From Streptomyces sp. NBC_01351 (lineage in GTDB: Bacteria; Actinomycetota; Actinomycetes; Streptomycetales; Streptomycetaceae), in NCBI RefSeq assembly GCF_036237315.1, contig NZ_CP108358.1, positions 1-64,000 on the forward strand: a stretch of 64,000 bases of DNA, in the 5' to 3' direction. A program made the translations under genes and the position numbers. Shown here piece by piece: positions 1-58,149 of this stretch. Every line of letters begins with the position of its first letter. Positions within the stretch are counted from its first letter, which is position 1. A model generated the notes under the pieces. That model saw only the letters and a program-made list of their open reading frames with translations. It was not told the origin of the DNA and made no database searches.

Positions 1-200
1 CACAGCGCTGCGCGCTGTGCCAACGAACCGCTTCGCTTCGCTCAGCGGGAGGGCGCTTCGCGCCCTCAGGGCTGGCCCTTCGGGCCCGGTGTCCTGCGCT
101 TCGCTCCGGACGGGTTCGGGATTCCGCTTCGCTTCATCCCGAACGGCCTGCTACGCAGGCCAGGGTGACCCCGTTTCACGGGGTCCGGGCCTTCGGCCCG
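1..200. other. Telomere-like run of nine short hairpins
   Basis: Consecutive inverted repeats fill this stretch: 1-19, 28-48, 49-67, 74-86, 91-111, 114-144, 145-161, 167-185 and 186-200. Examples are CACAGCGC/GCGCTGTG around TGC, GACCCCGT/ACGGGGTC around TTC, and CGGGCC/GGCCCG around TTC. Read on the complementary strand, most loops are GCA, GAA or GTA, i.e. the stable three-base GNA loop. Streptomyces telomeres are known to be runs of palindromes whose 3' overhang folds into such loops. At a left end that overhang is the complementary strand, which fits. The classical archetypal terminal sequence is not seen, so this would be a variant telomere or a slightly truncated end. Confidence 0.6.
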
Positions 201-5626: not shown

Positions 5627-7072
5627 ATGAACGCCGTCATGCCCCAACACGACCGACGGGACCCCCAGCGAGCCACGAACTGGTGGCACCGCATCCACGG
5701 CGCCCTGCGCATGTTGTGCCTGCTGGTCGTCGGAGTCGTCGCCCTCGGTGTCGCGGCGAACGCCGCCCCCGCCAAGCGGCAGTTCCACCGGGCCTCCGCC
5801 CCGGCGCCGACGCTCGCGATGGAGCAGATCGTCACCACCGGCACGGCCGTCTACGCGCTCTCCGCCGACCACCAAGGCGTCTACGAGTGGTCCACCCACC
5901 AGGACAACTGGATCAAGGTGTTCGGGCCCGCCCGGAACATCTACGCCGGCGGCGGGAACCTCTACGCGACCGATCAGGCCCCGGGCGACATCCACAAGTA
6001 CGCCGGCAAGCCCGGCCAGTGGAACCGCATCGGCGGCCCCGGCCTGACGTTCGTCGCCACCGGCGAGAAGGTATACGGCGTCAGCCCCGACAGCAGCGGA
6101 GTCTGGGAATACAGCGGGAAGGGAGACGTCTGGGCCAGAATCGGTGGACCCGCCAAGAATCTCTACGCCGGCCCTGCCAAGGACGTCCGCCGCTCCGTCA
6201 AGGACCTCAACCGCCGCCCGCTCAACACCCTCTACAAGACCGACCTGGCGACCGGCGACCTCTACAAGTACGACGGAAAGCCCGACCAGTGGACCAACGT
6301 CGGCAGTCCCGGCGCCACGTTCGCCGTCACCGACGAGAACCTCTACGGACTGACCCCCGACCGCTCCGCCGTCGTCGAACGCGACACGAAGAGTGGCAAG
6401 TGGAAGGGCGTCGGCGGGCCCGCCGGTGACATCTTCAGCAGCAATACGCTCTATAAGACCGACAAGGTGACCGGCGACCTCTACAAGTACAACGGCAAGC
6501 CCGGCCGGTGGAACCGCATCGGCGGCCCCGCCGCCGCCTTCGCCACCAGCGGTGACTACCTCTACCGGCTCTCCTCCGACCGCCGCTCCGTCCAGAAGTA
6601 CAACGGCAACGGCGCCACCGACCAGTGGCTCGACCTGCGGGCTCCCGTCACCCCGGCCACCCGCGCGGAGAAGATCGCCCGCCTGACCGCCCTCACCCAG
6701 TTCGGGACCGACGCCACCAACGCCTGGTACCGGGAGTACGGCGCCCACCGCACGGGCAAGCCCGACCGCTACGAGTTCCGGTGGACCACCAACGTGTGCA
6801 ACTCTCCCGCCCCGAACTCCATCGGCAGCTACGACTTCACCCTCGCCTGCGTCCGCCACGACTTCGGTTACCGCAACTACCGCGACCTCTTCGGTGAGGC
6901 GGCCTTCCGCGACAACCCGACCGGCAAGCAGCGCATCGACCAGATCTTCCTCCAGGACCTGAACCAGGTCTGCGACCAGCGGGGCTGGCCCAAGGCCTAC
7001 ACCCCCTCCGATCGCGCAGCATGCAAGGCGGCCGCCAACACCTACTTCGGCGTTGTCGTCCGCTTCGGCTGA
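5627..7072 (+). CDS. Secreted prokaryotic phospholipase A2 with N-terminal propeller-like repeats
   Basis: 481 aa. The ATG at 5627 is preferred over upstream in-frame starts because GAAGGG lies at the right distance. A hydrophobic signal or anchor is at about residues 27-45. Residues about 60-345 hold repeats of the form GDxxKYxGKPxxWxxIGGP, likely a tachylectin-like beta-propeller that may bind surface glycans. The C-terminal about 130 residues match prokaryotic phospholipase A2: NVCNSP, then the catalytic His-Asp in ACVRHDFGYRNY, then RIDQIFLQDL and paired cysteines. The enzyme hydrolyses the sn-2 ester of phospholipids. The repeat-plus-PLA2 fusion is uncommon. It is followed by a strong bidirectional terminator. 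Confidence 0.8.
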   Translation: MNAVMPQHDRRDPQRATNWWHRIHGALRMLCLLVVGVVALGVAANAAPAKRQFHRASAPAPTLAMEQIVTTGTAVYALSADHQGVYEWSTHQDNWIKVFGPARNIYAGGGNLYATDQAPGDIHKYAGKPGQWNRIGGPGLTFVATGEKVYGVSPDSSGVWEYSGKGDVWARIGGPAKNLYAGPAKDVRRSVKDLNRRPLNTLYKTDLATGDLYKYDGKPDQWTNVGSPGATFAVTDENLYGLTPDRSAVVERDTKSGKWKGVGGPAGDIFSSNTLYKTDKVTGDLYKYNGKPGRWNRIGGPAAAFATSGDYLYRLSSDRRSVQKYNGNGATDQWLDLRAPVTPATRAEKIARLTALTQFGTDATNAWYREYGAHRTGKPDRYEFRWTTNVCNSPAPNSIGSYDFTLACVRHDFGYRNYRDLFGEAAFRDNPTGKQRIDQIFLQDLNQVCDQRGWPKAYTPSDRAACKAAANTYFGVVVRFG

Positions 7073-19613: not shown

Positions 19614-20411
19614 ATGGAGCGGCTGGAAATCGGGCTGTTGGGGCCTCTCGTCATCACGGTCGACGGCAGGTCCGTCGTACCCAGTGCCGCGAAGCAGCGC
19701 GGGCTGCTCGCGCTGCTGTCCGTGAACCTGGGACGCGAGGTGGGGATGGGCGCGATCGTCGAGGAGCTGTGGGGCGGGTGCCCGCCCAGTGGGCCGGCGG
19801 CCGCGGTGCAGACGTACGTGAAGCACCTGCGGCACCGCATCGCCGAGGTCAGTGGCGCTGATCCGAAGGAGATCGTGGCCCGCGGGTACGGGGGCTACCG
19901 GCTCGGGTCCGCGGTGGCCCAGGTCGACGCGCAGGACTTCGAGGCGACCGTGACCGAGGCGAACCGGGCGCTGGCGACCGGGGACGACGAGCGGGGTGCC
20001 GAGCTGCTGAGGTCCGGGCTCGCCAAGTGGCGGGGCCCGGCGCTGGGCGACGTACAGCAGGGCGGGGTGCTGCGGGCCGAGGCGCTGCGGCTGGACGAGG
20101 TGCGGCTGGCCGCGCTGGAGTCCAGGATCGCGGCGGAGCTGCGGCTCGGGGCGCACACGCGACTGGTGAGCGAGCTGACGGGGCTGACCTCGCTGTACCC
20201 GCTGCAGGAGAACCTGCACGCCCACTTGATCGTCGCGCTGTACCGCAGCGGGCGGGCGTCGCGGGCGCTGGAGGTCTTCCGGCGGCTGCGCTCGACCTAC
20301 GTCAAGGAGTTGGGGATCGAGCCGTCGCGGCGGCTGCAGGAGCTGCACCGGTCGGTGCTGGGCTGCGATCCGATGCTGGAGCCGCCGGTTCCGAGCCTGG
20401 CGTCGCTCTAG
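19614..20411 (+). CDS. SARP-family activator of the RiPP-like locus
   Basis: 265 aa, the standard length of a minimal SARP. The N-terminal OmpR-like winged helix (LEIGLLGPLVITVDGRSVV ... AVQTYVKHLRHRI) is followed by the bacterial transcriptional activation domain (LQENLHAHLIVALYRSGRASRALEVFRRLRSTYVKELGIEPSRRLQELH). SARPs recruit RNA polymerase to cluster promoters. Its closest neighbour downstream is the SagB-like gene, and both share an upstream GTGAA...TCAT motif. The start has GAAGGGAG. Confidence 0.85.
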   Translation: MERLEIGLLGPLVITVDGRSVVPSAAKQRGLLALLSVNLGREVGMGAIVEELWGGCPPSGPAAAVQTYVKHLRHRIAEVSGADPKEIVARGYGGYRLGSAVAQVDAQDFEATVTEANRALATGDDERGAELLRSGLAKWRGPALGDVQQGGVLRAEALRLDEVRLAALESRIAAELRLGAHTRLVSELTGLTSLYPLQENLHAHLIVALYRSGRASRALEVFRRLRSTYVKELGIEPSRRLQELHRSVLGCDPMLEPPVPSLASL

Positions 20412-30502: not shown

Positions 30503-30544
30503 TCAGACGTAGCTCAGTGGTCCGTCAGCGCGGTCCGGGATTCT
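30503..30544 (+). promoter_or_regulatory. SARP-type promoter of mbtH
   Basis: TCAG at 30503, 30514 and 30525 (GTCAGAC, CTCAGTG, GTCAGCG) recurs at exact 11-bp steps. A -10-like GATTCT begins 14 bases after the last one (30539-30544). It matches the layout before the ACP, NRPS and SARP genes. Confidence 0.7.
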
Positions 30545-30679: not shown

Positions 30680-30901
30680 GTGTCGAACCCCTTTGACAAC
30701 CAGGACGGAACCTTCCTCGTGCTGGTGAACGACGAAGGCCAGCACTCCCTCTGGCCCGCTTTCGCCCAGCGCCCCGAGGGCTGGACGGTGGCCCTGGGCG
30801 AGGGACCGCGGGACGCGGCCCTCGCCTACGTCGAGGAGCACTGGACGGACATGCGTCCGGCCGGGCTCCGCGAGGACGCCGCCGCCGAGTCCGCCGCCTG
30901 A
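30680..30901 (+). CDS. MbtH-like protein
   Basis: 73 aa. The family signature is complete: SNPFDNQDGTFLVLVNDEGQ, SLWPAF, PEGW, and WTDMRPAGL at the end. MbtH-like proteins bind A domains and are needed for their folding or activity. The GTG at 30680 is chosen because the protein then begins (V/M)SNPF, as usual, and GGAG lies eight bases upstream. It starts an operon with the exporter ATPase and the regulator at 31919. Confidence 0.95.
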   Translation: MSNPFDNQDGTFLVLVNDEGQHSLWPAFAQRPEGWTVALGEGPRDAALAYVEEHWTDMRPAGLREDAAAESAA

Positions 30902-39960: not shown

Positions 39961-39991
39961 TCAGTGTCGCGTCAGGGAAGGTCGGCAGTCT
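39961..39991 (+). promoter_or_regulatory. SARP-type promoter of the SARP gene
   Basis: GTCAGTG and GTCAGGG have TCAG at 39961 and 39972, 11 bp apart. CAGTCT begins 14 bases after the second (39986-39991). This suggests autoactivation of the regulator at 40132, with a leader of about 135 bases. Confidence 0.55.
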
Positions 39992-40131: not shown

Positions 40132-40929
40132 ATGGAAATCAACGTACTCGGTTCCGTATCCCTTTCCTGGGGCGACCGCACTTATGCCATGGCATCGAAG
40201 CGGGTTACCTCGCTCCTGACGTTCCTGGCCCTCTCTCCGCGCACCACGGTGACGTCCGACCAGATCGAGGACGAGCTCTGGGCCGACCAGCGGATGACCA
40301 ACGCCCGCAACGCCCTGCAGGCCAACGTGCTGCGGCTGCGCAAGTACCTGGAGTCCCTGACCGGGGTGAAGGGGACCGAGCTGATCCGCACCGTCGGCAG
40401 CGGCTACCTGCTGGACCTGGATCCCGAACGCGTCGACGCGCACCGCTTCCTGCGGCTGGCGGAGACCGGCGCGGCGCTGGTGCACGTGGACCCGGAGCGG
40501 GCCATCACCGCGCTGGAGCGGGCGCTCGCGCTGTGGCGGGGGCCCGCCCTGATGGACTCGGTGGACGGGGTACGGATCCGGCTGGCCGCCTCCCACCTGG
40601 AGGAACGCCGGATCACCGCCTACGAGGACCTCATCACGGCCATGCTGACCGTCGCGGCGCACCGCATCTCGGTGCCGGAGCTGCGCCAGCTGGCCGTCGA
40701 GCACCCCGAACGGGAGCGGCTCAGCGAGCTGCTGATGCTGGCCCTGTACCGGGAGGGCCGACAGGCCGAGGCGTTGGACGTGTTCCACGGCGCGCGCCGC
40801 CGGCTCGCCGGAGACCTGGGGCTGGAGCCCGGCCGCGCCCTGAACCGGGCGTACCAGGCGATCCTCGAACAGGACGACGTGCTCGGGGAGCCCCGTCAGG
40901 CCCTCGTCTACGCCGGGCGGCGGGGCTGA
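40132..40929 (+). CDS. SARP-family pathway activator of the peptide cluster
   Basis: 265 aa. The OmpR-like DNA-binding domain (MEINVLGSVSLSWGDRTYAMASKRVTSLLTFLALS ... NARNALQANVLRLRKYLE ... TVGSGYLLDL) is followed by the activation domain (RLSELLMLALYREGRQAEALDVFHGARRRLAGDLGLEPGRALNRAYQAIL). It is divergent from the halogenase. TCAG heptamers with SARP-type 11-bp spacing precede it and three biosynthetic operons, so it is the natural candidate to bind them. The ATG at 40132 is chosen by homology (MEINVLG); upstream in-frame codons are non-coding in character. Confidence 0.9.
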   Translation: MEINVLGSVSLSWGDRTYAMASKRVTSLLTFLALSPRTTVTSDQIEDELWADQRMTNARNALQANVLRLRKYLESLTGVKGTELIRTVGSGYLLDLDPERVDAHRFLRLAETGAALVHVDPERAITALERALALWRGPALMDSVDGVRIRLAASHLEERRITAYEDLITAMLTVAAHRISVPELRQLAVEHPERERLSELLMLALYREGRQAEALDVFHGARRRLAGDLGLEPGRALNRAYQAILEQDDVLGEPRQALVYAGRRG

Positions 40930-41017
40930 GACCGTCCCCCGTCTTTCCCTTCCCCTTTCCGTTCTGTCCTTCCGCTGTTCTGCCACTGTCGTCCTGCTGA
41001 CGTTTCGCAGGTGCCCC

Positions 41018-41045
41018 TTGCCCACAAGCGGAATGCGGCTACGGT
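41018..41045 (+). promoter_or_regulatory. Possible promoter of the LysR gene
   Basis: TTGCCC (41018-41023), a 16-base gap, and TACGGT (41040-41045) lie in the 252-base gap before the LysR gene. This is a plausible housekeeping-sigma promoter; nothing else stands out in that gap. Confidence 0.35.
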
Positions 41046-41181
41046 GAATGGACCGGTTCAGTCCTCGGGTTCGTTTCCGCCTGGATATCCGGACCCGATA
41101 ATCCGGGGACGGCCCACCCCGGCGGCAGTGGACCTGTGGACTGAATTCCCATTTCCGGGAACCGCCGACGGGGGGCAGGAC

Positions 41182-42189
41182 ATGGAACTCGAATTGCGTC
41201 ACGCTCGCATTGTCGTCACGATCAACACCGCCGGGAGCATTTCCGCCGGAGCCCAGGAACTCGGCCTTCCGCAGCCGAGTCTCACCGCACAACTGCGCCG
41301 TATCGAAAGGGCGGTCGGCGGCGACCTCTTCGTACGTTCCCGATCCGGGGTGACCCCGACCGAGCTGGGTGCGCGGCTCGTCCCGCGCCTGGCCGACCTG
41401 GTCCGCCGGGCTGACGAGGTGATGGCCGAGGCCCTGGCCTCCTCCGGCGGCCCGCTGCGGCTGGGCTGCGCCGAGTGGACGCCTCCGACGTTGCGCGACG
41501 CCCTCCAGGCGGCACTGCCGGGCAACACCGTGCAGACGCAGACGCTGGCCCCGGAGGCCGCCGCGGAAGCGGTACAGCGCGGGGCGCTGGCCGCCGCGCT
41601 GGTGCCCCGGGTCCCCGAGCCGGCCGACGGCGACGGCGGTGGTGACGGCGACGGCGGCGAGCCCGCCCTGGGCCACGCCCTGATCGTGCGGGAACCGGTG
41701 TGGCTGGCGGTCCCGCTCGGCCATCCGCTCACCGCCCGCGAATCCGTCGGGTCGGACGAGCTCGCCGAACTCACCGACCGGGCCGGGCTGGCCTGGGTGC
41801 GCTCCTCGCAAGACCACTGGTTCCGCACCGTGGAGCGGCGCGTGCTGGGCGGCGGCGCCGCGCCCGGGCGGGTGCTGCACCACGTCAACAGCCACCAGGA
41901 GGCCATGAACTGGGTGCGGGGCATGGACGTGGCCGCGCTCACCACGCCCTCCGGGGCGGTGCCGGGCGTGGCCCTGGTGCCGGTGACCGACACCGAGCGG
42001 GTCGAGCTGGTGCTGCTGTGGCGCGGCAACGCCGTCTCCCGCGAGACCCTGCACACCCTGGTCGACACCGTACGCGCGTACTACTGCGGCTACGCCCGCT
42101 CGCTGCCGGCGTACTGGTCCTGGATCCAGGAGCACCGCGACGAGTACAGAGAGCTCGGGCGCCACCTGCCGCAGCCCGTCGTCGCCTGA
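41182..42189 (+). CDS. LysR-family regulator
   Basis: 335 aa. The N-terminal winged HTH (MELELRHARIVVTINTAGSISAGAQELGLPQPSLTAQLRRIERAVGGDLFVRS) is followed by a substrate-binding-like effector domain (GPLRLGCAEWTPPTLRDAL ... EPVWLAVPLGHPLTARESVGSDELAELTDRAGLAWV). The linker carries a DGDGGGDGDGGE low-complexity insert. It has AGGA before the ATG. It lies between the SARP and the ACP and is a second pathway regulator, possibly acting on the CTTAAG-type promoters (inference). Confidence 0.9.
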   Translation: MELELRHARIVVTINTAGSISAGAQELGLPQPSLTAQLRRIERAVGGDLFVRSRSGVTPTELGARLVPRLADLVRRADEVMAEALASSGGPLRLGCAEWTPPTLRDALQAALPGNTVQTQTLAPEAAAEAVQRGALAAALVPRVPEPADGDGGGDGDGGEPALGHALIVREPVWLAVPLGHPLTARESVGSDELAELTDRAGLAWVRSSQDHWFRTVERRVLGGGAAPGRVLHHVNSHQEAMNWVRGMDVAALTTPSGAVPGVALVPVTDTERVELVLLWRGNAVSRETLHTLVDTVRAYYCGYARSLPAYWSWIQEHRDEYRELGRHLPQPVVA

Positions 42190-42201
42190 GCCGGCCGGAC
42201 C

Positions 42202-42309
42202 TCAGCGGGAGTTCAGCACGCGGTCAGCCGAGACTCGGCAGCGGCTCAGCGGGAGTCCGACAGCGGGTCAGAACGGCGTCAGAGGGCCGTCAGAGCGGTC
42301 GGCCAGCAT
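42202..42309 (+). promoter_or_regulatory. Nine-step 11-bp heptamer array before the ACP gene
   Basis: TCAG starts at 42202, 42213, 42224, 42246, 42268, 42279 and 42290. The two missing steps hold TCGG (42235) and CCGA (42257). Every step is exactly 11 bp. A -10-like CAGCAT begins 14 bases after the last one (42304-42309), and the ATG follows at 42317, so the mRNA may be leaderless. This is far longer than the usual two or three repeats of a SARP operator. Confidence 0.8.
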
Positions 42310-42316
42310 CTGCGGC

Positions 42317-42598
42317 ATGACAACTGCAGCGAACCGCCTCGACGCCGAATCCCGCGATCGCATCAAGGAGATCATCTGCGACATCCTCGAGATCGAGCCC
42401 TCGGAGATGAGCGACACCAGCCGCTTCAAGGAGGACCACGAAGCGGACTCCATGGGCGCCATCGAGATCCTCTCCCAGCTGGAGCGGATCTTCGGCACCG
42501 ACATCGACCAGGCCGAGCTCTCCCGGATGGTCAACCTCTCCACCGTCATCACGGTCGTCGAGGAAGCCATAGCCGCCAAGTCCGAACCGGCCAACTAG
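42317..42598 (+). CDS. Acyl carrier protein of the type II-like PKS
   Basis: 93 aa. The phosphopantetheine serine lies in DHEADSMGAIEIL (near residue 45) in a standard four-helix ACP. It has no ribosome site. The ATG sits 13 bases after the start of the -10-like hexamer, consistent with a leaderless transcript. It carries the growing acyl chain for the KS pair downstream and opens the operon 42317-46530. Confidence 0.9.
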   Translation: MTTAANRLDAESRDRIKEIICDILEIEPSEMSDTSRFKEDHEADSMGAIEILSQLERIFGTDIDQAELSRMVNLSTVITVVEEAIAAKSEPAN

Positions 42599-42632: not shown

Positions 42633-43865
42633 GTGTACGACGATGAGCGGGCGCCGCGCCGGGTGGTGATCACCGGCCTCGGCACGGTCACCAGCATCGG
42701 CCTCGGAGTCACGGCCTTCCTGGACGGACTGCGGTCCGGTCGCAGCGGGGTCAAGCCGATCACGGCATTCGACACGACGGGCTTCGCCCACGCCAACGGG
42801 TGCGAGGTCGACGACTTCGAGCCCGCGGACTGGATCCACCGGACCGAGCCGGCGGACCTGGGCCGGGCCACGCAGTTCTCGATCGCCGCCGCCCGGATGG
42901 CCGTCGCGGACGCCGGCCTGACCCCGGAAGACCTCCGGGAGCGGAAGGTCCTGGTCTCGGTCGGCACCACCGACGCCGAGTCCCGGGACCTGGACCTGCT
43001 CGTCGGTCAGCAGCTGGAGCACGGACCGGAGCACCTGGACCAGGGCGTCGTGCGCCGGGCCCAGGCCGGCCGGCTCTCCAGCGGCATCGTCCGCGAACTC
43101 GGCCTCGTGGACGTGGAGGCCCTGACCATCCCGACCGCCTGCGCGGCCGGCAACTACGCCATCGGCAGCGGCTTCGACGCCATCCGCGACGGCGACGTCG
43201 AGACCGCGCTGTGCGGTGGCGCCGACGCCGTCTGCCGCAAGACCTTCACCGGTTTCTACCGGCTCGGCACCATCGCCCCGGAGGTCTGCCAGCCCTTCGA
43301 CAAGGACCGCAAGGGCATCCTCACCGGCGAGGGCGCCGGGATCCTGCTGATGGAGAGCCTGGATTCGGCTCTGGCACGCGGCGCCCGGATCTACGCCGAG
43401 GTCCTCGGCTACGGGCTCAGCTGCGACGCCCACCACCCCGTCGCCCCCGACCAGGACGGCCTGGCCCGGTGCATCGAGGTGGCGCACCGCAACGCCGGGG
43501 TCAAGGCGGAGGACATCGACTTCATCTCCGCGCACGGCACCGGCACCCACGCCAACGACGTGACGGAGGCGGGCGCGATCCGCCAGGTCTTCGACACCCC
43601 GCCGCCCACCATCTCCATCAAGTCCATGATCGGCCACTCCATGGGCGCGGCGAGCGCGCTCGCCTCCGCCGCCTGTGCGCTGGCGATCACCGAGGGGTTC
43701 ATCCCTCCCACCATCAACCACCGCGAGACCGACCCCGAGTGCGGCCTGGACTGCGTGCCCAACGAGGCCCGCCCGGCCCGGCTCGACGTCGTGCAGAACA
43801 ACGCCCTGGCCTTCGCGGGCAACAACGCCGTGCTGATCCTCGGCCGCTACGAGGAGGCCGCCTGA
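42633..43865 (+). CDS. Ketosynthase alpha (KAS II/FabF-like, type II PKS)
   Basis: 410 aa. The catalytic Cys is in PTACAAGNYAIG (near residue 170), with the two catalytic His in AHGTGTHAND and SMIGHSMGAAS. It extends an acyl-ACP by decarboxylative condensation with malonyl-ACP. It shares a one-base stop/start overlap with the partner at 43865, as in KS/CLF pairs. With the ketoreductase downstream and no cyclase or aromatase in sight, a reducing (polyene or unsaturated acyl) type II system is more likely than an aromatic one. Confidence 0.9.
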   Translation: MYDDERAPRRVVITGLGTVTSIGLGVTAFLDGLRSGRSGVKPITAFDTTGFAHANGCEVDDFEPADWIHRTEPADLGRATQFSIAAARMAVADAGLTPEDLRERKVLVSVGTTDAESRDLDLLVGQQLEHGPEHLDQGVVRRAQAGRLSSGIVRELGLVDVEALTIPTACAAGNYAIGSGFDAIRDGDVETALCGGADAVCRKTFTGFYRLGTIAPEVCQPFDKDRKGILTGEGAGILLMESLDSALARGARIYAEVLGYGLSCDAHHPVAPDQDGLARCIEVAHRNAGVKAEDIDFISAHGTGTHANDVTEAGAIRQVFDTPPPTISIKSMIGHSMGAASALASAACALAITEGFIPPTINHRETDPECGLDCVPNEARPARLDVVQNNALAFAGNNAVLILGRYEEAA

Positions 43866-44959
43866 TGTCCCCCACCCCCCTGGTCATCTCCGGCTGGTCG
43901 GCGGTCTCGCCGTTCGGCGTCGGCCGTGACTCCTTCAGCAGCGGAATGTCCGCCGGCCGCACCACCATCGGTGCCGTCGACCGCGAGGTCTTCCCCGGCC
44001 CGTTCGCCGAGGGCGCGGTGGTCCCCGATTTCACCGCCGCCAAGTACGTCGGGAAGAAGGGGACCCGGACCATGGACCGGGTCACCGCCATCGCGGTCAC
44101 CGCCGTCGGCGGACTCATCGACGGCTTCCGCGAGGAGCTGGCCGCCCGCCCCGAGCAGACCGCCCTGGTCCTCGGCACCGGCTCCGGCAGCGTGCAGAGC
44201 ATCATGGACTTCACCCGGGACGCACTGGCCGGCGAGCGCCCGTACCACGTGGACCCGGCCCGCTTCCCGAACACCGTGATGAACCGGGCCGCCGGGCAGA
44301 GTGCCATCTGGCACGGCATCAAGGGCCCCAACACCACCGTCGCCGGCGGCTCGCTGACCGGCCTGCTCGCCCTCGGGTACGCGCTGCGGCTGCACCGCGG
44401 GGGCCACTGCTCCCGCGTACTGGTGGGCGCGGCCGAGGAGTACTCGACCCAGCGCTCCTGGCTGGAGTGGCACGGCCGCGACGAGGTGGAGCGCGACACC
44501 CCGCTCGGCGAGGGCAGCGCGGTCTTCCTCCTGGAGACCGCCGAGGACGCGGCGGCGGCCGGACGGGGCCCGCTGGCCCGGATCGGCGCCACCGGCTTCC
44601 GTGCCTTCCACGAGCCGGACGGGGCCCGGGAGGCCCTGGCCGTCTGTGTGCGCGGCGCACTGGAGAAGGCCGGCGTGGCCCCTTCCGACGTACGACTGGT
44701 GGCGCCCCTGGGCTCCGGCGGCCCGCTCGTCCGGCAGGAGGAGGACGCCGTCGCCGACGTGCTCGGCGAGGACGCCGACCCGCGGTGGGTACGGATCCGG
44801 CCGCTGGTCGGAGACACCTCCGCGGCGTCCGCCGCACTGCAGTTGGCCGGGGTGCTCGCCGCGGCCGGCGAGCGGGGCCTGGCGCCCGGCGAGGCCGCGC
44901 TGGTCACCGGTATCGAGCGGGACGGCCTGGTCGGCTGCGCGGTCCTCACCGGCGGCTGA
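43865..44959 (+). CDS. Ketosynthase beta / chain-length-factor-like partner
   Basis: 364 aa, ketosynthase fold without the active-site cysteine: where the alpha subunit has TACAAG this protein reads VAGGSLTGL. The catalytic histidines are also replaced (APLGSGGPLV, RPLVGDTSAA). It should form a heterodimer with the alpha subunit and set chain length. Its start codon overlaps the alpha stop (TGATG). Confidence 0.85.
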   Translation: MSPTPLVISGWSAVSPFGVGRDSFSSGMSAGRTTIGAVDREVFPGPFAEGAVVPDFTAAKYVGKKGTRTMDRVTAIAVTAVGGLIDGFREELAARPEQTALVLGTGSGSVQSIMDFTRDALAGERPYHVDPARFPNTVMNRAAGQSAIWHGIKGPNTTVAGGSLTGLLALGYALRLHRGGHCSRVLVGAAEEYSTQRSWLEWHGRDEVERDTPLGEGSAVFLLETAEDAAAAGRGPLARIGATGFRAFHEPDGAREALAVCVRGALEKAGVAPSDVRLVAPLGSGGPLVRQEEDAVADVLGEDADPRWVRIRPLVGDTSAASAALQLAGVLAAAGERGLAPGEAALVTGIERDGLVGCAVLTGG

Positions 44960-46954: not shown

Positions 46955-47007
46955 TCAGCGCGCCATCAGTTCGCTTTCAGAACGCCGTCAGCGCGCGCGG
47001 CGACGAT
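46955..47007 (+). promoter_or_regulatory. SARP-type promoter of the NRPS operon
   Basis: TCAG starts at 46955, 46966, 46977 and 46988, in exact 11-bp steps (TTCAGCG, ATCAGTT, TTCAGAA, GTCAGCG). GACGAT begins 14 bases after the last (47002-47007), the same offset as in the ACP, mbtH and SARP promoters. Confidence 0.8.
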
Positions 47008-47055: not shown

Positions 47056-50000
47056 ATGACGCATGTTCAGACGGTCGGCGGCCTTCCGCTCACCGCCGGC
47101 CAGAAGGACATCTGGTTCGACGCGAAACTCTCTGGCGGGGGAGCCACGTACAACACCGCCATCTACTGGGACATCAGGGGCCCGCTCGACCACGAGCTGT
47201 TCCGCACGGCGCTGGAGCGCCTCGTCGCGGAGTCGGAGTGCCTCCGGACCAGATTCACCGAAGTGGACGGCGAGCCCCGCCAGTTCGTCGAGCCGCTGGA
47301 GGTGCTGCCGCTGACGGTCACCGACGTCAGCGGCGCCGCCGACCCCGCCGCAGCCGCGCACGAGGCGATCCGCGCCGATCTGCGGGTCCCGTTCACGCTG
47401 CCCGCCGAGGGCAACGCGGGCAACGACAACGGCGGGGGCGACGAGAACGGCGGGGGCGACGGCAGCGCACCCGGCCCCCTGTTCCGCCTGAGCGTCTTCA
47501 CGCTCAACCCCGACCGCACCTTCTTCTGCCTCCTCAACCACCACCTGGTCTCCGACGGCTTCAGCTACGTCATCTACTGGCAGCGGCTCTCCGCGATCTA
47601 CGAGGCCCTGCTGGCCGGAACCGACCTCGACGAGGGCCGTTTCCCGGCGCTGACCACCCTGCTCGACGCCGAGGCCGGATACGTCGGTTCGGCCCGTGCC
47701 CAGCGCGACGCCGCCTACTGGGAGGAACGTTTCTCCGACCGCCCCGAGCTGATCAGCCTCTCCACCGGCGACGCCGAGCCCGCCCAGACCTTCCTCCAGG
47801 AGCAGGGCGTCCTGCCCGGGGCCGTCGCCGAGCGGCTGCGCGCCGTGGCCTGGGAGTCCCGCGTCACCTGGCAGACCGTGCTGGTCGCGGCCCTGGGGGC
47901 CTACACCGGCCGGATGGCCGGCACCGAGGACGTCCTGCTGTCCGTGCCCGTCACCGCCCGCGTCGGCGGCGACACCCAGAAGGTCCCCGGCATGGTGGTC
48001 AACTACCTGCCGCTGCGGCTCGCCGTGGACTCCGCCACCACCCGCACGGGACTGCTCGCCGACGCCTACCGCGCCTTCTCGCAGGCCCTCAAGCACCAGC
48101 GGCACCGGGTCAGCAAGATCCGCCGCGCCATGGGCCTGCCCAGTGACGACCGGCGTCCCTTCGGCCCGTTCCTCAACATGATGCCGCAGGTGGAGAAGCT
48201 GGCCATCGGCCCGTGCGAGGCCACCATCCACAGCCCGTCGACCGGGCTGGTGGACGACCTGGAGTTCACCGTCGCCGACAAGGGCGACGACGGCATAGGC
48301 ATCGACCTGAACGGCAACGAGGCCCGCTACACGCGTCCCGAGGTCCGCGCGCACCTCGACCGCTTCGTCTCCTACCTCGACCGGTTCCTGACGGCCGACG
48401 CGGAGCGGCCGCTGGCCGGCCTGGAGCTCCTCTCCCCCGGCGAGGCCGGGGAACTCGCCGCCGCGCTCACCGGCCCGGTCCGCCCGACCCCGTACCTGGG
48501 CGTCGTGGAGCGGATCCGGGCGCACGCCGTGAGCACCCCGGACGCGCCGGCCGTCACCGACGACACCGGCACCCTCGGCTACGCCCGGCTCGTCGGCCGC
48601 GCCGGCGCGCTCTCCCGCCACCTGACCGGCACCGGCCCGGTCGCCCTCCTCACCGAGCCCGGCCGGGACTTCGTCACCGCCGAGCTGGCCGTCCTCGGCG
48701 CCGGGCGGGCCTTCGTACCGCTCGACCCGGGTGCGCCGCTGCCCCGTCTGACCTCCCTGCTGCGCGACAGCGGCGCCGGCTTCGTGCTCACCGACGCCGC
48801 GCACCGGGACCTCGCCGAGCAGGCCGCCGCGGCCGCCGGCGACGGCGTCCCGCTGCCCGTGCGCGAGATCGGCACCGAGGAGGACGCCCCGGACGCGCTG
48901 CCGCCCGTACTCGGCGGCCCGCAGGACCTGGCGTACGTCATCTACACCTCGGGTTCCACCGGCAAGCCCAAGGGCGCCATGGTGCAGCGCGGCGGCATGG
49001 TCAACCACCTGCTCGCCAAGGTCGAGGAGCTGTCCCTGGACAGCTCCGACGCGCTCGTCCACAACGCCCCGGTCACCTTCGACGTCACCGTGTGGCAGAC
49101 CCTGACCACGCTGCTCGTCGGCGGCCGGGTCCGCGCCTTCAGCCGGGCCGAGGCCTCCGACCCCGACGCGCTGTTCACCACGATCGGCGCCGAGGGCCTG
49201 ACCGTGCTGGAGGTCGTGCCCTCCCTGCTGCGCGCCACCCTCGACGTGTGGGACGCGGCCGGCTCCGCCCCGGAGCTGCCCGCGCTGCGCTGGATGATCT
49301 CCAACGGGGAGGCGCTGCCGGCCGAGCTGTGCACCCGCTGGTTCGCCCGCTACCCGGACATCGCGCTGGCCAACCTGTACGGCCCGACCGAGTGCTCCGA
49401 CGACGTCACGCACGCCTACGCCCCCACGCGGGGCGCCCTCGACGCGATGGCCGCCGCGATCGTCCCCATCGGCCGCCCCCTGCGCAACACCCGACTGCAC
49501 ATCCTGGGCGACGACCTGTCGCCCGTGCCGCGCGGAGTGCGCGGCGAGCTGTACATCGCGGGCGCCGGCGTGGGCCGCGGCTACCTCGGCGACCCCCGCC
49601 GTACGGCCGTCACCTTCCTGCCCGATCCCTTCGCCGGGGACGGCTCCCGCATGTACCGCACGGGCGACCTGGTGGAGCTGCGCCCCGACGGGCAGCTCGC
49701 CTTCGTCGGCCGCCGCGACCACCAGGTCAAGATCCGCGGCCAGCGCATCGAGCTCGGCGAGGTCGAGTCGGCGCTGCGCGCGCTCCCCGGTGTCGCCGAC
49801 GCGGTCGCGGCCGCCGTCACCGACCCGGCCGGTCACAAGCGTCTGGTCGGCTACCTGGAGCCGGAGTCCGGCGTCCTCCTCGACACCCCGGCGCTGCGCG
49901 CACTGCTCGCCGGCCGGCTGCCGGAGGCGCTCGTGCCGACCGTGCTGCTCACCCTGGACGCGCTGCCGCTCACGGCGCACGGCAAGGTGGACCGCAAGGC

Positions 50001-53000
50001 GCTGCCCGCCCCGGACCCGGCCGGCCCCAAGGCCGCCGTCCGGGCTGCCCGTACCCCGGAGGAGGGCATCCTCGTCGCAGTGCTGGCCGAGGTGCTGGGC
50101 CTGACCGAAGTCGGCGTCGACGACAGCTTCTTCGCCCTCGGCGGCGACAGCATCAGCTCCATCCAGGTCGTCAGCCGGGCCCGCCGGGCCGGGCTGATCG
50201 TCACCGCCCGCGACGTCTTCAAGCACCGCACCCCGGCCGCCATCGCCGCCGTGGCCCGGCGCGTGGAGAGCGCCGCCGCGGTCGTCGCCGACGACGGAAC
50301 CGGCGAGATCGACCCGACGCCGATCTCCGACCGGCTGCGCGAGCAGCTGTCCGAACTCCCGGAAGCGACGCGCGAGTTCGCCCAGTACATCGCCGTCACC
50401 GCACCCGCCGGACTCACCCCGGACGTCCTGGAGCCCGCCCTGCAGGCGGTCCTGGACCGGCACGACGTGCTGCGCCTGAAGCTCGGCACCCCGGTGCCGG
50501 GCCTGTGGACGCAGGAGGTCCTGGCACCCGGCGCCGTCACCGCAGCCGACGTGGTCACCCGGGTCACCGTGCCCGCCGGCGCGGACCGCGCGGCCGTGCT
50601 CGCCGAGCAGACCGCCGCTGCCCGGGCCCGGCTGCGCCCCGAGACGGGCCTGGTCGTGCAGGCGGTCCTGCTGGAGGAGGCCCCCGGCGCGGGCGGCCGC
50701 CTGCTGCTGGTCGTCCACCACCTGGCCGTGGACGGGGTGTCCTGGCGGATCCTGCTGCCGGACCTCAAGGCCGCCTGGCAGGCCGTCACCGAGGGCCGCA
50801 CCCCTGCTCTGGAACCCGTCCCGACCTCCTTCCGGACCTGGGCGAAGGCCCTGTCCGCGGATGCCCGCACCTCCCGTCGGGTGGGTGAACTCCCGCTGTG
50901 GAGCGCCCAGTCGGCCGGGGACGCGGAGATCCTGGCCGACCGGCCGCTGGACCCGGCCACCGACACCTGGGCGCACGCGGGCCGGCTCCGGCTGGAACTG
51001 CCCGCATCGCTCACCGCCGACGTGCTCACCCGGGTGCCCGGCGCCCTGCACGCCGAGATCAACGAGGTGCTGCTGACCGGTCTCGCGCTGGCCGTCACCG
51101 GCCGTTCGGGAGCCCGTGGGACCCGTACCGTCGTCGAGCTGGAGGGCCACGGCCGCGAACAGATCGGGGACGGCCTCGACGTCTCCCGTACGGTCGGCTG
51201 GTTCACCAGTGCCTTCCCCGTCGGGCTGGACGTCGGCGAGCTGGACCGGGCCGAGGCAGCGGCCGGCGGCCCGGCCGTCGGCGCCGCCCTCAAGCGGGTC
51301 AAGGGCGCGCTGCGCGCCCTGCCCGACCACGGCATCGGCTACGGCCTGCTGCGCCACGTGAACCCGCAGACCGCGGTGGTGCTCGCGCGGACCGCCGTGC
51401 CCCAGATCTCCTTCAACTACCTGGGCCGGTTCGCGGCGGGTGACGGCGCCTGGGCGATCGAGGCCGGCGGCGCCGGCCTGACCGCCTCCCCCGACACCCC
51501 GCTGCGCCAGCCCCTGGACCTGGTCGCGCTGACCGAGGACCGCCCCGAGGGCCCGGTCCTGGTGGCCGAGTGGACCTGGCCGTCGGGCGCGCTGGACGAG
51601 AGCGCCGTACGGGAGGTCGCCGAGGGCTGGTTCGCCGCGCTGGGCGCGCTCGCCGCGTACTCCTCGCGCCCCGGATCGGGCGGCCGGATCCCCGCCGACT
51701 TCCCGCTGGTCGACGTGGAGCAGCGGGAGATCGACGCCTGGGAGCAGGAGCCGGCCGGGCTCACCGACGTGCTGCCGCTGTCCCCGCTCCAGCGCGGCCT
51801 GCTGTTCCAGGCGGAGTTCGACCGCCAGGGCATGGACGCGTACACCCTCCAGGTCGTCATGGACATCGGCGGCTCGCTGGACGTGGCCGCGCTGCGTGCC
51901 GCGGCCACCGCGCTGCTGGACCGCAATCCGGAGCTGCGCGCACGGTTCCGCGAGCGGGAGCAGGGCGATCCGGTGCAGCTGATCCCGGCCTCCGTCGAGC
52001 TGCCGTGGACCGAGATCGACCTCACGGCCGGCGCCGATCCCGGCGCGGAGGCGAGCCGGCTGACCGAGGAGGAGTGGCTGGACCGCTTCGACGTGACGCA
52101 GGGTCCGCTGACCCGGTTCACCGTCTACAAGCTGGGCGCCGAACGCCACCGCGTCGTGTGGACCACCCACCACATGCTGGTGGACGGCTGGTCGCTGTCC
52201 GCCGTCCTCGCCGAGGAGCTCGTCACCCTGTGGGGCAACGGCGCCGATGTCAGCGCCCTGCGCCCGGTGGCGCCGGGCCGCGCCTACCTGGAGTGGTCCG
52301 CCGCCCAGGACAAGCCGGCCGCCCGTGCGGCGTGGGAGCGGGAGCTCGACGGGATCGACGAGGCCACCCGGCTCGGCCCCGCCGACCGGGCGCGGGTCTC
52401 CGTCCTTCCCGAGACCTACACCGTGGAGCTGCCCGCCGAGCTGACCGGCTCCCTCACCGAATGGGCGACCCGGCGCGGCCTGACCATGAACACGGTCGTG
52501 CAGGGCGCCTGGGCGGCCGTGCTGGGCAGCCTCACCGGCCGCCGCGACGTGACCTTCGGCGCGGTCGTCTCCGGACGCCCCGCGGACCTGCCCGAGGTCG
52601 AGCGGATGGTCGGCGCGTTCCTGCACACCCTGCCGGTACGGGCGGACCTGGATCCGGCGCTGCCGTTCGAGGAGCTGCTGGCCGGTCTCCAGGACCGCCA
52701 GCTCGCGCTGGAGGAGCACCAGCACCTGGGCCTGGCCGATGTGCAGCAGGTCATCGGGATCGGCGAGCTCTTCGACACCGTGGTCAGTTTCCACAACTAC
52801 CCGGCGGGCGCGCTGGACGCGATCGGCTCGTACGTCCCCGGTCTGACCATGCACGACTGGAAGGCGCGGGTCATCGCCGAGTACCCGCTCGCCGTCGGGG
52901 TGTTCCCCACCGAGGGGCAGCGGCTGCGGGTGGAGGCCCAGTACCGGCCGGACGTCTTCGACGCCGCGCGGGCCGAGGTCTTCGTCGACCGGTTCGCCCG

Positions 53001-56000
53001 GGTGCTGAGGCAGCTCGCCGACGCCCCGAACACCCCGCTGGGCCGGATCGACGCGCTGACCGGCGAGGAGCGCGAGCAGGTGCTCGGCGCCTGGTCGGGG
53101 GCGGGCGCGGCCCGCCCGGCCATCGCCGCCCTGGCCACCACGACGTTCGAGCGGTGGGCCGGGTTCTCGCCCGCCAAGCCGGCCGTCTCCCTCGGCGACG
53201 AGGAGCTCGACTACGCCGAGCTGAACGGCCGGGCCAACCGGCTGGCCCGGCTGCTGGCCGAGCGCGGAGTCGGTCCGGAGCAGCCGGTCGCCGTGATGCT
53301 CCCCCGCTCCCCCGGGCTGGTCGTCGCCGCGCTGGCCGCCCTCAAGGCGGGCGCGGTGTTCCTGCCCGTCGACGCCGACTACCCGGTCGACCGGATCGGT
53401 TACATGCTGGAGGACGCCCGCCCGCCGGTCCTGCTGACCGACGCGGCGACCTGGTCCCGCCCGGCGGGCCTGCCCGACCTGGCCGCGTTCGGGGTCGCTC
53501 CGCTGCTGCTGGACGCGCCCGAGACGGCCGCCCGGCTCGCGGAGCTCGCCGGGACCGACCTCACCGACGCGGAGCGGGTGGCGCCGCTGCACCCGGAGAA
53601 CACGGCGTACATCATCTACACCTCCGGCTCCACGGGCCGCCCCAAGGGCGTCGCCGTGGCGCACACCGGGCTGATGTCGATGATCTCCAGCCTCTCCGAC
53701 CGGTTCTGGCTCGACCACGACGTACGGGTCCTGCAGTTCGCCTCGTTCAGCTTCGACGCCTCGGTCTTCGGCATCATGCTGGCGCTGCTCAACGGCGGCA
53801 CCCTGGTCATCGCCGACGAGGAGGCCCGCAACCCGGGCCGGCCGCTGGTGGACCTGATCAACGACGCCCGGATCAACCTGGTCGCGCTGCCGCCCGTCGT
53901 GGTCGGCGGGCTGCCCGCCGACGCCACGCTCCCCGCGGACCTGCGGCTGGTGGTCACCGGGGAGGCGGTGCCGGCCGGGGTGGTGGAGCGCTGGGGCGGC
54001 TCGGTCAAACTGTTCAACGGCTACGGGCCCACAGAGGCCGTCGTCGGCTGCACCGTCGCCGGCCCGCTGGCCCCGCGGGCCGGGCGGCCGCCGATCGGAA
54101 AGCCCACGAACGCCCACCGCGTGTACGTGCTCGACCGGAACCTGCGGCCCGTCGCCCCGGGCGTCACGGGTGAGCTGTACGTAGCGGGCGGCCTGGCGCG
54201 CGGCTACCTGGCCCGCCCGGGGCTGACCGCGTCCCGGTTCGTCGCCGACCCGTTCGGCCCGGCGGGCTCCCGGATGTACCGCACGGGCGACCTCGTGACC
54301 TGGCTGCCCGACGGCGACCTCGACTACCTGGACCGGGTCGACGACCAGGTTCAGCTGCGCGGGATCCGCATCGAGCTCGGCGAGATCTCCTCGGCCCTGC
54401 TCGCCCAGCCCGGCGTCGAGCAGGCCGTCGTGGTGATGCGCGAGGACGAGGCGGGCGAGCGCCGGCTGGTGGCGTACGTCGTCGCCGCTTCCGCCGCCGG
54501 CCCCGAGGCCACCGCGGTGCTGCGCGAACGGCTCGCCGCGGAACTGCCCGACTACATGGTCCCCTCGGCGGTGGTCGCCCTCGAGGAGCTGCCGCTGACC
54601 GCCCAGGGCAAGCTGGACCGCAAGGCCCTGCCCGACCCGGACCTGGGCGCGGCCTCCCGCGGCCGGTCCCCGCGGACGCCCGTCGAGGGCATCCTGTGCG
54701 GGCTGTTCGCGGATGTCCTCGGCCTGGAGCAGGTCTCCATCGACGACGACTTCTTCGAGATCGGCGGGCACTCGCTGCTCGCCACCCGCCTCGTCAGCCG
54801 GGTGCGCAGCACCCTCGGCGTCGAACTCCCCATCCGTGCCCTGTTCGAGGCCCGGTCCGTGGTGGGTCTGGCCGCACAGGTCGGCCACGCGGCGCAGGCC
54901 CGGCCCGCGCTGGCGCCGGCCGCGCCGGGAGGGGAGCGCCCGCTCTCCTCCAGCCAGCAGCGCCAGTGGTTCCTCAACCGGCGCCAGGGCCGCGAGGACG
55001 GCTCGTACAACAGCGCCATGGCCTTCCGGCTGCAGGGGAAGCTCGACACGGACGCCCTGCAGGCGGCCCTGCTCGATCTGACGGCCCGGCACGAGGTGCT
55101 GCGGACGGTGATCCCCGAGCAGGACGGGGTGCCCTCGCTGCGGGTCCTGGACCCGGCCGCGGGCGCGCCGGTCCTGAGGACCGTGTCCGTCTTCACCGAC
55201 CAGCTCGACACCGCGCTGGCCACCGAGGCCGACCGGGGCTTCGACCTCACCGAGGAGACCCCGCTGCGGGTGCGGCTCTTCCCGACCGGCGCGGACGCGT
55301 ACGTCCTGCTGATCGTGCTGCACCACATCGCCTTCGACGGCTGGTCGATGGAGCCGCTGCTCGACGACCTCGCCACCGCCTACCGGGCCCGGACCGGCGG
55401 GCGGGCCCCGAAGTGGGAGCCGCTGCCGGTGCAGTACTCGGACTTCGCGGTCTGGCAGCGCGAGCTGCTCGGCGAGCCGGAGGACCCGGACGGCCTCGGC
55501 GCGCGGCAGCTCGACTTCTGGCGCGACGCCCTGGCCGGTCTGCCGGAGGAACTGCCGCTGGCGACCGACTTCCCCCGCCCGGAGGGCGGCGGGACCGCCG
55601 GTGACACGGTCCTGTTCGACCTGGACCCGGAACTGCACGGCGCGATCGCGGAGATCGCCCGGACCACGGGCACCACCGAGTTCATCGTCTTCCAGGCGGC
55701 GCTGTCGGCCCTGCTGACCCGGTGGGGCGCGGGGACCGACATCCCGCTCGGGGTGTCCGTCGCCGGGCGCTCCGACGACGCGCTCGCCGATGTGGTCGGG
55801 ATGTTCCTCAACACCCTGGTGCTGCGCGGCGACACCAGCGGCGACCCCACCTTCCGGGAGCTGCTGGAGCGGCTGCGGGAGACCGACCTGGCCGCCTACT
55901 CGCACCAGGACGTGCCCTTCGACCAGGTCGTGGACGCGGTCAGGCCGGCCCGCGCGCTGGGCAGGCACCCGCTGTTCCAGGTCTCGCTCACCGTGCAGCA

Positions 56001-58149
56001 CGACGGGGTGCGGGTGCCCGAGCTGGTGGGGCTGAGCGCGGAGCCGGAGTACGTCGGATCCGACCAGGCCAAGCTGGACCTGGTGCTGGAACTGTTCAAC
56101 TGGCCCGGCCGGGACGGCATGCGCGGTCTGCTGACCTTCAGCACCGCGCTGTACACCCGGGACACCGCGGAGCGGCTCGTCGGGCAGTTCCGGGAGGTGC
56201 TGCGGGCCGCCGTCGCCGACCCCGAGGTGCGCGTCAGCGGCCTCGACGCGGACCGCGGGGCCACCGGCCCGGCGGCCGCGGCGGTGACCTCGTCCGTGAC
56301 CACTCCGGTGGCCGAGCCGGTGGCCGACACCCTGACGGAGCTGATCGCCGGCCGGATCGCCGCCTCCCCGCAGGAGACCGCGGTCGGCGCCGGGTCGCGG
56401 GCCCTGTCGTACGCGGCCCTGGACGAGCGCGCCGGACGGCTGGCGCAGCTCCTCGTGGAGCGGGGGGCCGGCCCCGGCCGGGTCGTCGCCCTCGCGGTGC
56501 CGCGCGCCGCCGACCAGGCGGTGGGCGCCCTCGCGGTGCTCAAGTCCGGTGCGGCCTACGTGCCGGTGGGCGCGGAGGAGCCGAGCGACCTGGTCCGTGA
56601 GCTGGTGGAGGCGACCGCCGCGGTGGCCGTCCTCACCACCGAGGGCCTGGCCGGCAGGCTGCGGAGCACCGGGGTGCCGGTCGTGGTCCTGGACCCGGCC
56701 GCCGGTGGTCCGGCGGCCGGACCGGCCCCGGCGCGGCTGCCGGAGCCGGGCCTGCCCGCCTACCTGGTGCGCGGCCCGGAGGGGGCGGCCCCGGTCACCC
56801 CCGTCAGCCACGCCGAGGCGGCCGCGCTGGCCTCCGTACCGGGCGCGGCGGCGGACGCCGGGCTCTGGCCGGCCCTGCTCTCGGGCACGGCCGCGGGCGC
56901 CGCGGACCGACCGGGCCGCGACTGGTCCACCCCCGACCCGTCGTCCCCGGTGGACAGCCCTGGGGAAGCGGCTGCCGCAGCCGCCGTGGCGACCACCGCC
57001 ACGGACGCCGATCCGGTCGAGGAGACCCTGCTGGGGATCGTCCGCGACGTACTCACCAAGGACGCGCTCACGGCCGGGGAGAACTTCTTCGACGCCGGCA
57101 TGGACAGCATGAAGTCGCTGCGCGTGGTCAGCCTGGCCCGCAAGGCCGATCTGGGGCTGAGCATCGCGGACGTCTTCGTCCACCAGAGCGTCGCGGCGCT
57201 GGCCGCGAGCCTGCGCCCGGCCCCCGAACCGGAGCCCGAACCGGCCCCGGAAGCCGCCGTCCGGGCGCCCGCTCCGGAGGCCATGCGCAGCAGTGCCCGG
57301 GGCATGGCCGAGGCGATCGCCGAGGCCGACGGGATCGACCACGTCGAGCACTTCACCCCGATGCTGACCATCCAGCCCGACGGCGACCGCACCCCGCTGT
57401 TCTGCGTGCACAGCGGTGTGGGGCTGTCCCTCTCCTACCTGACCCTGGTGCCGTACCTGCACCCCGACCAGCCCGTCTACGCCCTCCAGTCGCCCACCGT
57501 GGTGGACGGCGCGGCCCTTCCGGAGACCATCGAGGAGAACGCCGCCGAGTACATCCGGCTGATCAAGGAGGTCCGGCCCGAGGGCCCGTACCACCTGCTG
57601 GGGTGGTCGTTCGGCGGGCTGCTCGCCTACGAGATGGCCGTCCAGCTCCGGGCGGCCGGCGACGAGGTGGGCCTGCTGACCGTCATGGACTCCTTCCCCC
57701 GCACCGACGCGGTCGACGAGCGCGACGAACAGGTACGGCTGGGCTGGCTGATGGAGGGCATCGGCCACCAGCGGGACGAGTTCGGCGGCCGCCGGCTCGT
57801 GCCGGACGACCTCTACGAAACGCTGCGCCGGGACAACAGTCCGCTGGCCCGGATGGGCCGCGAACGGCTCGGCCGGGTGGTGGACCTGATGGGCCGCCAC
57901 CAGCTCCTCAACACCCGCTACAAGCCGGGTGAGTACGCGGGGGACGTCGAACTCTTCCTCGCCGAACACTCGCCCTGGGGCGAGGTGACCGACAAGGACG
58001 TCCTGTGGAAGGAGTTCATGACCGGCTCCGTACGGGTGCACCGCATCGACTGCGCCCACGACGACATGCTGAACCCGGAGCCGCTGACCGCCATCGGCCC
58101 GGCCCTGCGGACCGCCCTCGACGCCTGGAAGGCCGGTAACCGGTCATGA
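47056..58149 (+). CDS. Three-module NRPS, C-A-T-E / C-A-T / C-(truncated A)-T-TE
   Basis: 3697 aa. Module 1: C (HHLVSDG near 161, EntF-like start suited to an acyl starter), A ([11 protein letters not shown] near 629; code read by eye DVWEINLDD, acidic pocket, perhaps a basic residue), T (LGGDSISS, Ser near 1032), E (HHLAVDG near 1221). Module 2: C (HHMLVDG near 1705), A ([11 protein letters not shown] near 2187; code DAFAVTGVG, close to the daptomycin kynurenine code DAWTTTGVG as remembered), T (Ser near 2573). Module 3: C (HHIAFDG near 2756), an A remnant of about 190 residues (3093-3281) lacking TSGSTG, YGPTE and later motifs, T (GMDSMKS, Ser near 3351), TE (GWSFGG, Ser near 3518). The product should be an acyl tripeptide with a D-residue first. 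Confidence 0.93.

Follow-up and report, generated by a model that had tools for sequence, protein, structure and literature searches.

A nine-unit array of 11-bp TCAG repeats before an acyl carrier protein gene of Streptomyces: a putative SARP operator

The stretch of DNA analysed here, called the window, comprises bases 1-64000 of a 214,901-base contig (C3) in a Streptomyces genome of 8.9 Mb. It carries a gene cluster that presumably resembles the cinnamoyl-peptide clusters. In the window, genes for a small SARP and a LysR-type regulator are followed by genes for an acyl carrier protein (ACP), a beta-ketoacyl synthase (KS) and a second ketoacyl-synthase-like protein, with an MbtH gene and an NRPS gene on either side (Table 1). 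A plasmid search returned nine partly matching records (5-18% of the query, 74-78% identity) and none that matched over most of the query.

The SARP encoded at 40132 matches the AfsR of the solved structure. R92 of AfsR, which contacts a T, aligns with R68 of this SARP; the base-contacting T88 is replaced by A64, a point against the operator reading given below. Since another SARP is encoded in the window at 19614-20411 and the contig has six BTAD matches, of which two (19923-20360 and 40432-40866) fall in the window, the SARP at 40132 is assigned as the binder of the array described below by comparison only.

Table 1. Genes, repeat arrays and the -10-like element at the locus (positions in the window)
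Feature	Position	Strand	Remark
Three TCAG units before MbtH gene	30503..30535	+	hexamer GATTCT 30539-30544
MbtH gene	30680-30901		preceded by three-unit array
Two TCAG units upstream of SARP gene	39961..39982	+	hexamer CAGTCT 39986-39991
Small SARP, putative array binder	40132..40929	+	265 aa; Trans_reg_C and BTAD
Reversed array, SARP stop to LysR gene	40964..41000	-	one TCAG and three ACAG, 11-bp steps
LysR-type regulator	41182..42189	+	frame open from 41011; likely start 41182
Nine-unit 11-bp array, putative SARP operator of ACP-KS operon	42202..42300	+	7 TCAG, 1 TCGG, 1 CCGA
-10-like hexamer CAGCAT	42304..42309	+	14 bp from T of last ACP-array core
Acyl carrier protein gene	42317..42598	+	ATG 27 bp from last core; predicted leaderless
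Beta-ketoacyl synthase gene	42633..43865	+	
Second ketoacyl-synthase-like gene	43862..44959	+	chain-length-factor-like by position
Four TCAG units before NRPS gene	46955..46998	+	hexamer GACGAT 47002-47007
NRPS gene	47056-58149		preceded by four-unit array

The array before the ACP gene and its sister arrays

Nearly the whole gap between the end of the LysR-type gene (42189) and the start of the ACP gene (42317) is occupied by a direct-repeat array. Exact TCAG cores start at 42202, 42213, 42224, 42246, 42268, 42279 and 42290, and the two degenerate cores, TCGG at 42235 and CCGA at 42257, keep the strict 11-bp register. The direct reading bears out the first-pass annotation, which had reported seven exact and two degenerate cores at 11-bp spacing over 92 bp (first to last core base, 42202 to 42293). 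Its wording of a ‘nine-step’ array was loose, the array having nine units and eight steps, and the end it gave, 42309, takes in the -10-like hexamer. The term ‘face-of-helix’ holds approximately: with about 10.5 bp per turn of the DNA helix, eight 11-bp steps drift by about 137 degrees. Automatic slot calling halted at a degenerate unit (4 exact cores in 5 slots for the window), and the count of nine units comes from direct reading.

The array is not a product of chance. Over 2000 dinucleotide-preserving shuffles of the intergenic region 42190-42316 (127 nt), the best count of one and the same 4-mer in nine 11-bp slots was 1 in 29 shuffles, 2 in 1701, 3 in 264 and 4 in 6, and it never reached 5, against 7 in the real sequence. 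Seven slots were reached nowhere else by any 4-mer on the + strand in 204 kb of the same contig, and an information score for nine 11-bp units was 6.55 for the array and 4.53 for the next-best place. Likewise, the pattern TCAG-N7-TCAG-N7-TCAG has 8 matches in the whole 8.9-Mb genome, 5 of which fall inside three arrays of the window, and the same three-copy pattern read backwards has none in the whole genome. Another 11-bp periodicity, with the same 4-mer in at least five of nine slots, lies at C3:84984-84995 (near 984 of locus L010) and is the sole other place reaching 5 on the + strand of those 204 kb.

Both strands of the window were scanned for TCAG at 11-bp steps, with a gap of one slot allowed. 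Of the five places found, four are promoter-like (30503, 39961, 42202 and 46955); the fifth is a two-copy match at 3110. A reversed array also lies between the SARP and LysR genes. Such reversed arrays are confined to six of the examined loci, which form one clade. For example, that of locus L054 (10828-10919) has 9 exact TCAG, that of genome G199 (locus L164, 13335 onward) has 3 TCAG and 2 ACAG, those of L068 and L069 (near 10808) have 3 TCAG each, and that of L059 has 2 TCAG and 1 ACAG.

Promoter geometry and known operators

A hexamer of the form nAnnnT begins 14 bp past the T of the last core in all four forward arrays of the window. This geometry was surveyed in 46 arrays of at least three exact TCAG from 29 loci (27 loci with a SARP of at least 50% identity plus two stretches of G199). 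The hexamer starts at +14 in 39 of the 46 and at +15 in 5, with none of the 46 at +12, +13 or +16, and the two arrays with no nAnnnT at +14 or +15 are long reversed arrays. No nAnnnT was found at +14 of the reversed arrays of the window, L054, G199 and L059; that of L068 has one there, and the reversed arrays of L068 and L069 both count among the hexamer matches. The gap from repeat to -10 is 8 bp if the heptamer is taken to start one base before the core T, and 7 bp if it starts at the T. No sigma-70-type promoter was found in 40900-42400.

The distance to the ACP gene is also kept. CA[G/C]CAT, followed after 6-7 nt by the in-frame ACP ATG, is found in 19 of 28 ACP-gene loci (the window and G199 included), with the ATG 26-28 bp from the last core; the layout is missing in the remaining nine, which are more distant (L061, L062, L065, L073 and L075-L079). 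From the conserved layout of hexamer and ATG, the ACP transcript is predicted to be leaderless, with a start near 42316, and the array repeats would overlap the -35 region, provided that transcription starts at this predicted position.

Operators of this kind are known for the small SARPs (DnrI, ActII-ORF4, OtcR and others, and the afs box of AfsR), in which 11-bp direct repeats likewise lie in promoters of the SARP-bearing cluster and the last repeat keeps a constant distance to a weak -10. The available parts of the sources give two or three repeats for them (PMC10972967, PMC4393881, PMC10936776), whereas the array has nine and two close relatives have seven and eleven. The first-pass annotation had also put typical SARP operators at two or three repeats, in agreement with the review among these sources (PMC10972967). 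No SARP operator with more than three native repeats was found in open-licence full texts, themselves seen in part, and subscription papers lay mostly outside the search. The kind of operator is known, and the length of the array is the new part.

As far as the excerpts of the structural paper go, AfsR is monomeric in solution, forms a side-by-side dimer on two 11-bp repeats, touches both sigma region 4 and the core of the polymerase, and bends the DNA by 20 degrees; the AfsR box reaches from -40 to -19 and has TTCAGC at -38 to -33, and the -35 region of afsS reads TTCAGC (PMC10936776). The register of the window would agree with this, as a last-core T at -26 puts the hexamer at -12, where the -10 of the AfsR promoter would fall as well.

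Other regulators of Streptomyces also use direct repeats. The pimM operator of PimR (SARP-LAL), in the available part of the report, consists of heptamers with 4-nt spacers and is bound cooperatively; in contrast to the nine units of the array, it has three repeats and a two-repeat secondary site. It does not overlap the -35, and adding a fourth repeat brought no substantial gain (PMC5930380). PhoP operators are built of successive 11-nt direct repeat units that vary in number and quality, but their core is GTTCACC, and the excerpts name four or five units for pitH2, glpQ1 and glpQ2 (PMC7866108, PMC4415409). Similarly, BldC binds direct repeats of varying number head to tail as a growing filament; it is, however, a MerR-like protein with 9-bp AT-rich units, two at whiI and four at smeA-sffA in the part of the paper available (PMC5859096).

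SARP operators are recognised by direct repeats in 11-bp (or 22-bp) steps, by a fixed distance from the last repeat to the -10 (stated as 8 bp), and by a SARP gene in the cluster with relatives that carry the same core, all of which are found at the array. Two or three repeats are usual without being defining, and the array has nine. It has the testable sequence features of a SARP operator and is regarded here as a putative one.

SARP subfamily, unit number and constraint

Related loci were fetched with the SARP at 40132 in the form of a 30-sequence alignment, the best 80 of 105 (1.53 Mb) were kept, and arrays were called at three or more exact TCAG with up to two missing slots. These best 80 loci contain 42 such arrays and none of the reversed motif GACT. 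Of the 27 loci whose SARP shares 50% identity or more, 21 contain arrays; the 53 loci with 43% or less, some of them short, contain none. In L061, L062 and L065 the array stays before the ACP gene though the LysR gene lies more than 3 kb upstream. Because the TCAG core tracks the SARP subfamily and the distance from last core to hexamer is fixed, the array very probably serves the SARP at 40132 as its operator, a putative assignment drawn from sequence comparison.

The number of units before the ACP gene varies among 26 relatives: seven units occur once (L054, Streptomyces sp. ISL-87), four once, three in thirteen and two in nine, and 2 of the 26 have no TCAG run there. The survey of repeat number in related clusters that the first-pass annotation had called for thus gives two to four copies in 23 of 26 relatives, and long arrays of seven, nine and eleven. 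The eleven units, all exact, are those of G199, whose SARP and KS are 94% and 95% identical to those of the window. In a combined SARP and KS tree of 25 rows, the loci with 7, 9 and 11 units group as one clade (100/99), next to a sister group with 3-4 units. In the window, L054 and G199, respectively, the NRPS promoter carries 4, 4 and 3 units and the MbtH-type array 3, 3 and 3; with these counts staying low, it is only at the ACP promoter that the array has grown. Ten SARP substitutions are peculiar to the clade and show no clear relation to the length of the array.

The first two and last three units of the window (1-2 and 7-9) correspond to the first two and last three of L054 (1-2 and 5-7), and the middles differ; hence, whole units have been gained or lost. 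When the three long arrays are taken together (27 units), identity in the four core columns is 96, 100, 93 and 96%, against 44-63% in the seven spacer columns. The pair of window and L054 by itself shows no selection on cores, since over five paired units the spacers (31/35 alike) are nearly as alike as the cores (20/20). With two degenerate cores among nine, the middle of the window array may be decaying.

Long TCAG runs elsewhere in the genus are mostly of another nature. In a partial sample of 392 Streptomyces genomes, even over the genus, a four-copy TCAG pattern matches in 153, and some genomes also match the backwards pattern; a run of at least six exact TCAG occurs in 19, and its backwards pattern in 4 by a reading of the table. 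The six- and four-copy exact patterns miss the ACP array of the window, whose longest exact run is three, so these figures undercount arrays with degenerate units. In 18 of the 19 long exact runs (one array per genome) the spacers are alike (identity 0.57-1.00) and the 3-kb locus has no match to the SARP at 40132; only the ACP array of G199 combines unlike spacers (0.41) with this SARP. A tandem-repeat explanation therefore fits most of these other long runs, and a pure tandem-repeat artefact was rejected for the window and G199, as their spacers are unlike. TCGA is another common SARP core. The six-copy TCGA pattern was found in 1 of 199 genomes, as a near-identical tandem repeat.

Activation threshold and rival explanations

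The array is probably an expanded operator for the cluster's own SARP, in which the extra units would lower the threshold for activation of the ACP-KS operon. One SARP monomer would occupy each unit, all in the same orientation, and the last two units (42279 and 42290) would place a SARP dimer across the -35 region, so that RNA polymerase could use the poor -10 and start near 42316. Neighbouring monomers would occupy the seven units upstream by way of the same side-by-side contact and stabilise the promoter-proximal pair; a dimer on direct repeats may have a free contact surface on either side, and further monomers could add upstream, as BldC does on its repeats. The ACP-KS operon would need less SARP to fire than the promoters with two (SARP), three (MbtH) and four (NRPS) units. 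The clade would have gained and lost units in whole 11-bp steps while selection kept the core.

The effect of unit number was modelled with a nearest-neighbour transfer matrix, in which the two promoter-proximal (last) sites give the transcription output. From 3 to 9 sites, the concentration for half activation falls 1.3-, 2.3- and 4.3-fold at cooperativity 10, 100 and 1000, and is unchanged at cooperativity 1; the steepness drops slightly, for example, from 2.24 to 2.01. In this model a sensitised, earlier-firing ACP promoter is likelier than a sharper switch, because the threshold falls and the steepness is slightly lower, which renders doubtful the ‘graded or cooperative switch’ of the first-pass annotation. 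Beyond 7 units the curve of the gain is almost level, and the threshold alone hardly explains why there should be 9 or 11 units; the model leaves aside any contact between distal monomers and polymerase, which might raise the output.

The flat gain also speaks for a rival view, in which only the last two or three units work and the upstream units are neutral by-products of the duplication of an 11-bp unit. Unit 1 is identical in sequence to unit 5 and unit 4 resembles unit 6, a pattern expected from duplication (TRF period 22); two units are degenerate, most relatives manage with 2-4 copies, and the fourth repeat gave PimR no substantial gain, in the part of that report available (PMC5930380). 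Neutral copies, however, would lose their cores as fast as their spacers, so the core conservation over the 27 units counts against neutrality, as does G199, which keeps 11/11 cores with unlike spacers (0.41); this explanation is considered unlikely. The array might instead, or in addition, act as a sink or delay element that titrates SARP monomers. The model array of nine sites holds about 7 monomers at half activation, and the reversed arrays adjoining the SARP gene in the window, L054 and G199, which have no hexamer, are TCAG runs that are not ordinary promoters; but the forward array keeps exact promoter geometry and the capacity of one locus, some nine monomers, would be small beside the usual copy number of a protein, making a sink very improbable.

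Ownership by another regulator, namely the adjacent LysR, PhoP, BldC or another SARP of the contig, is equally improbable. The LysR gene lies directly upstream, PhoP and BldC, too, have operators with variable numbers of direct repeats (PMC7866108, PMC5859096, both available in part), and there are the six BTAD matches; against this, the arrays track the relatives of the SARP at 40132, and the array persists where the LysR gene is more than 3 kb away or has no match. A LysR-type site is a T-N11-A dyad. On its core, a PhoP site was rejected, with no GTTCACC seen by eye on the + strand of the array and one GTTCAGC at 42211-42217, and a BldC site likewise, the units being 11-bp and GC-rich and not the 9-bp AT-rich AATTXXXX(C). 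Lying between the same-strand LysR and ACP genes, the array could also be thought to act as RNA, e.g. as an attenuator or terminator. The 11-bp spacing, however, suits DNA and not codons or a stem; an RNA structure or terminator was rejected, with folding no better than that of shuffles (z 0.26) and no terminator-like site in 40900-42400, and a role of this sort is scarcely credible.

The expanded SARP operator thus stays the preferred reading. A more far-reaching version can be offered tentatively: SARPs might be open-ended, head-to-tail activators that form a filament over about 115 bp upstream of the start, the unit number, changed in 11-bp steps, being an evolved dial of firing order within the cluster, and the reversed array a second, divergent use controlling LysR or SARP feedback.

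How many SARP monomers an operator can load, and whether a promoter is tuned by its repeat number, have rarely been tested, and one study, in the part available, stopped at four repeats (PMC5930380). The present loci form a natural series of one promoter with 2, 3, 4, 7, 9 and 11 units, the SARPs being close relatives and the layout otherwise conserved. Should added units lower the threshold, their number would offer a convenient dial for waking silent clusters and for setting the order of their genes; should they have no effect, the puzzle would be why the cores are so strongly conserved.

TCAG arrays are also found in five other Streptomyces genomes (L208-L212), each of which has two divergent arrays near 6100-6330 (near 5500 in L212) with four or five exact copies apiece. 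They lie within 13 kb of a ketoacyl synthase, have CAGACT or CACACT-type hexamers at the same spacing, and may belong to a different SARP-like regulon that shares the TCAG core.
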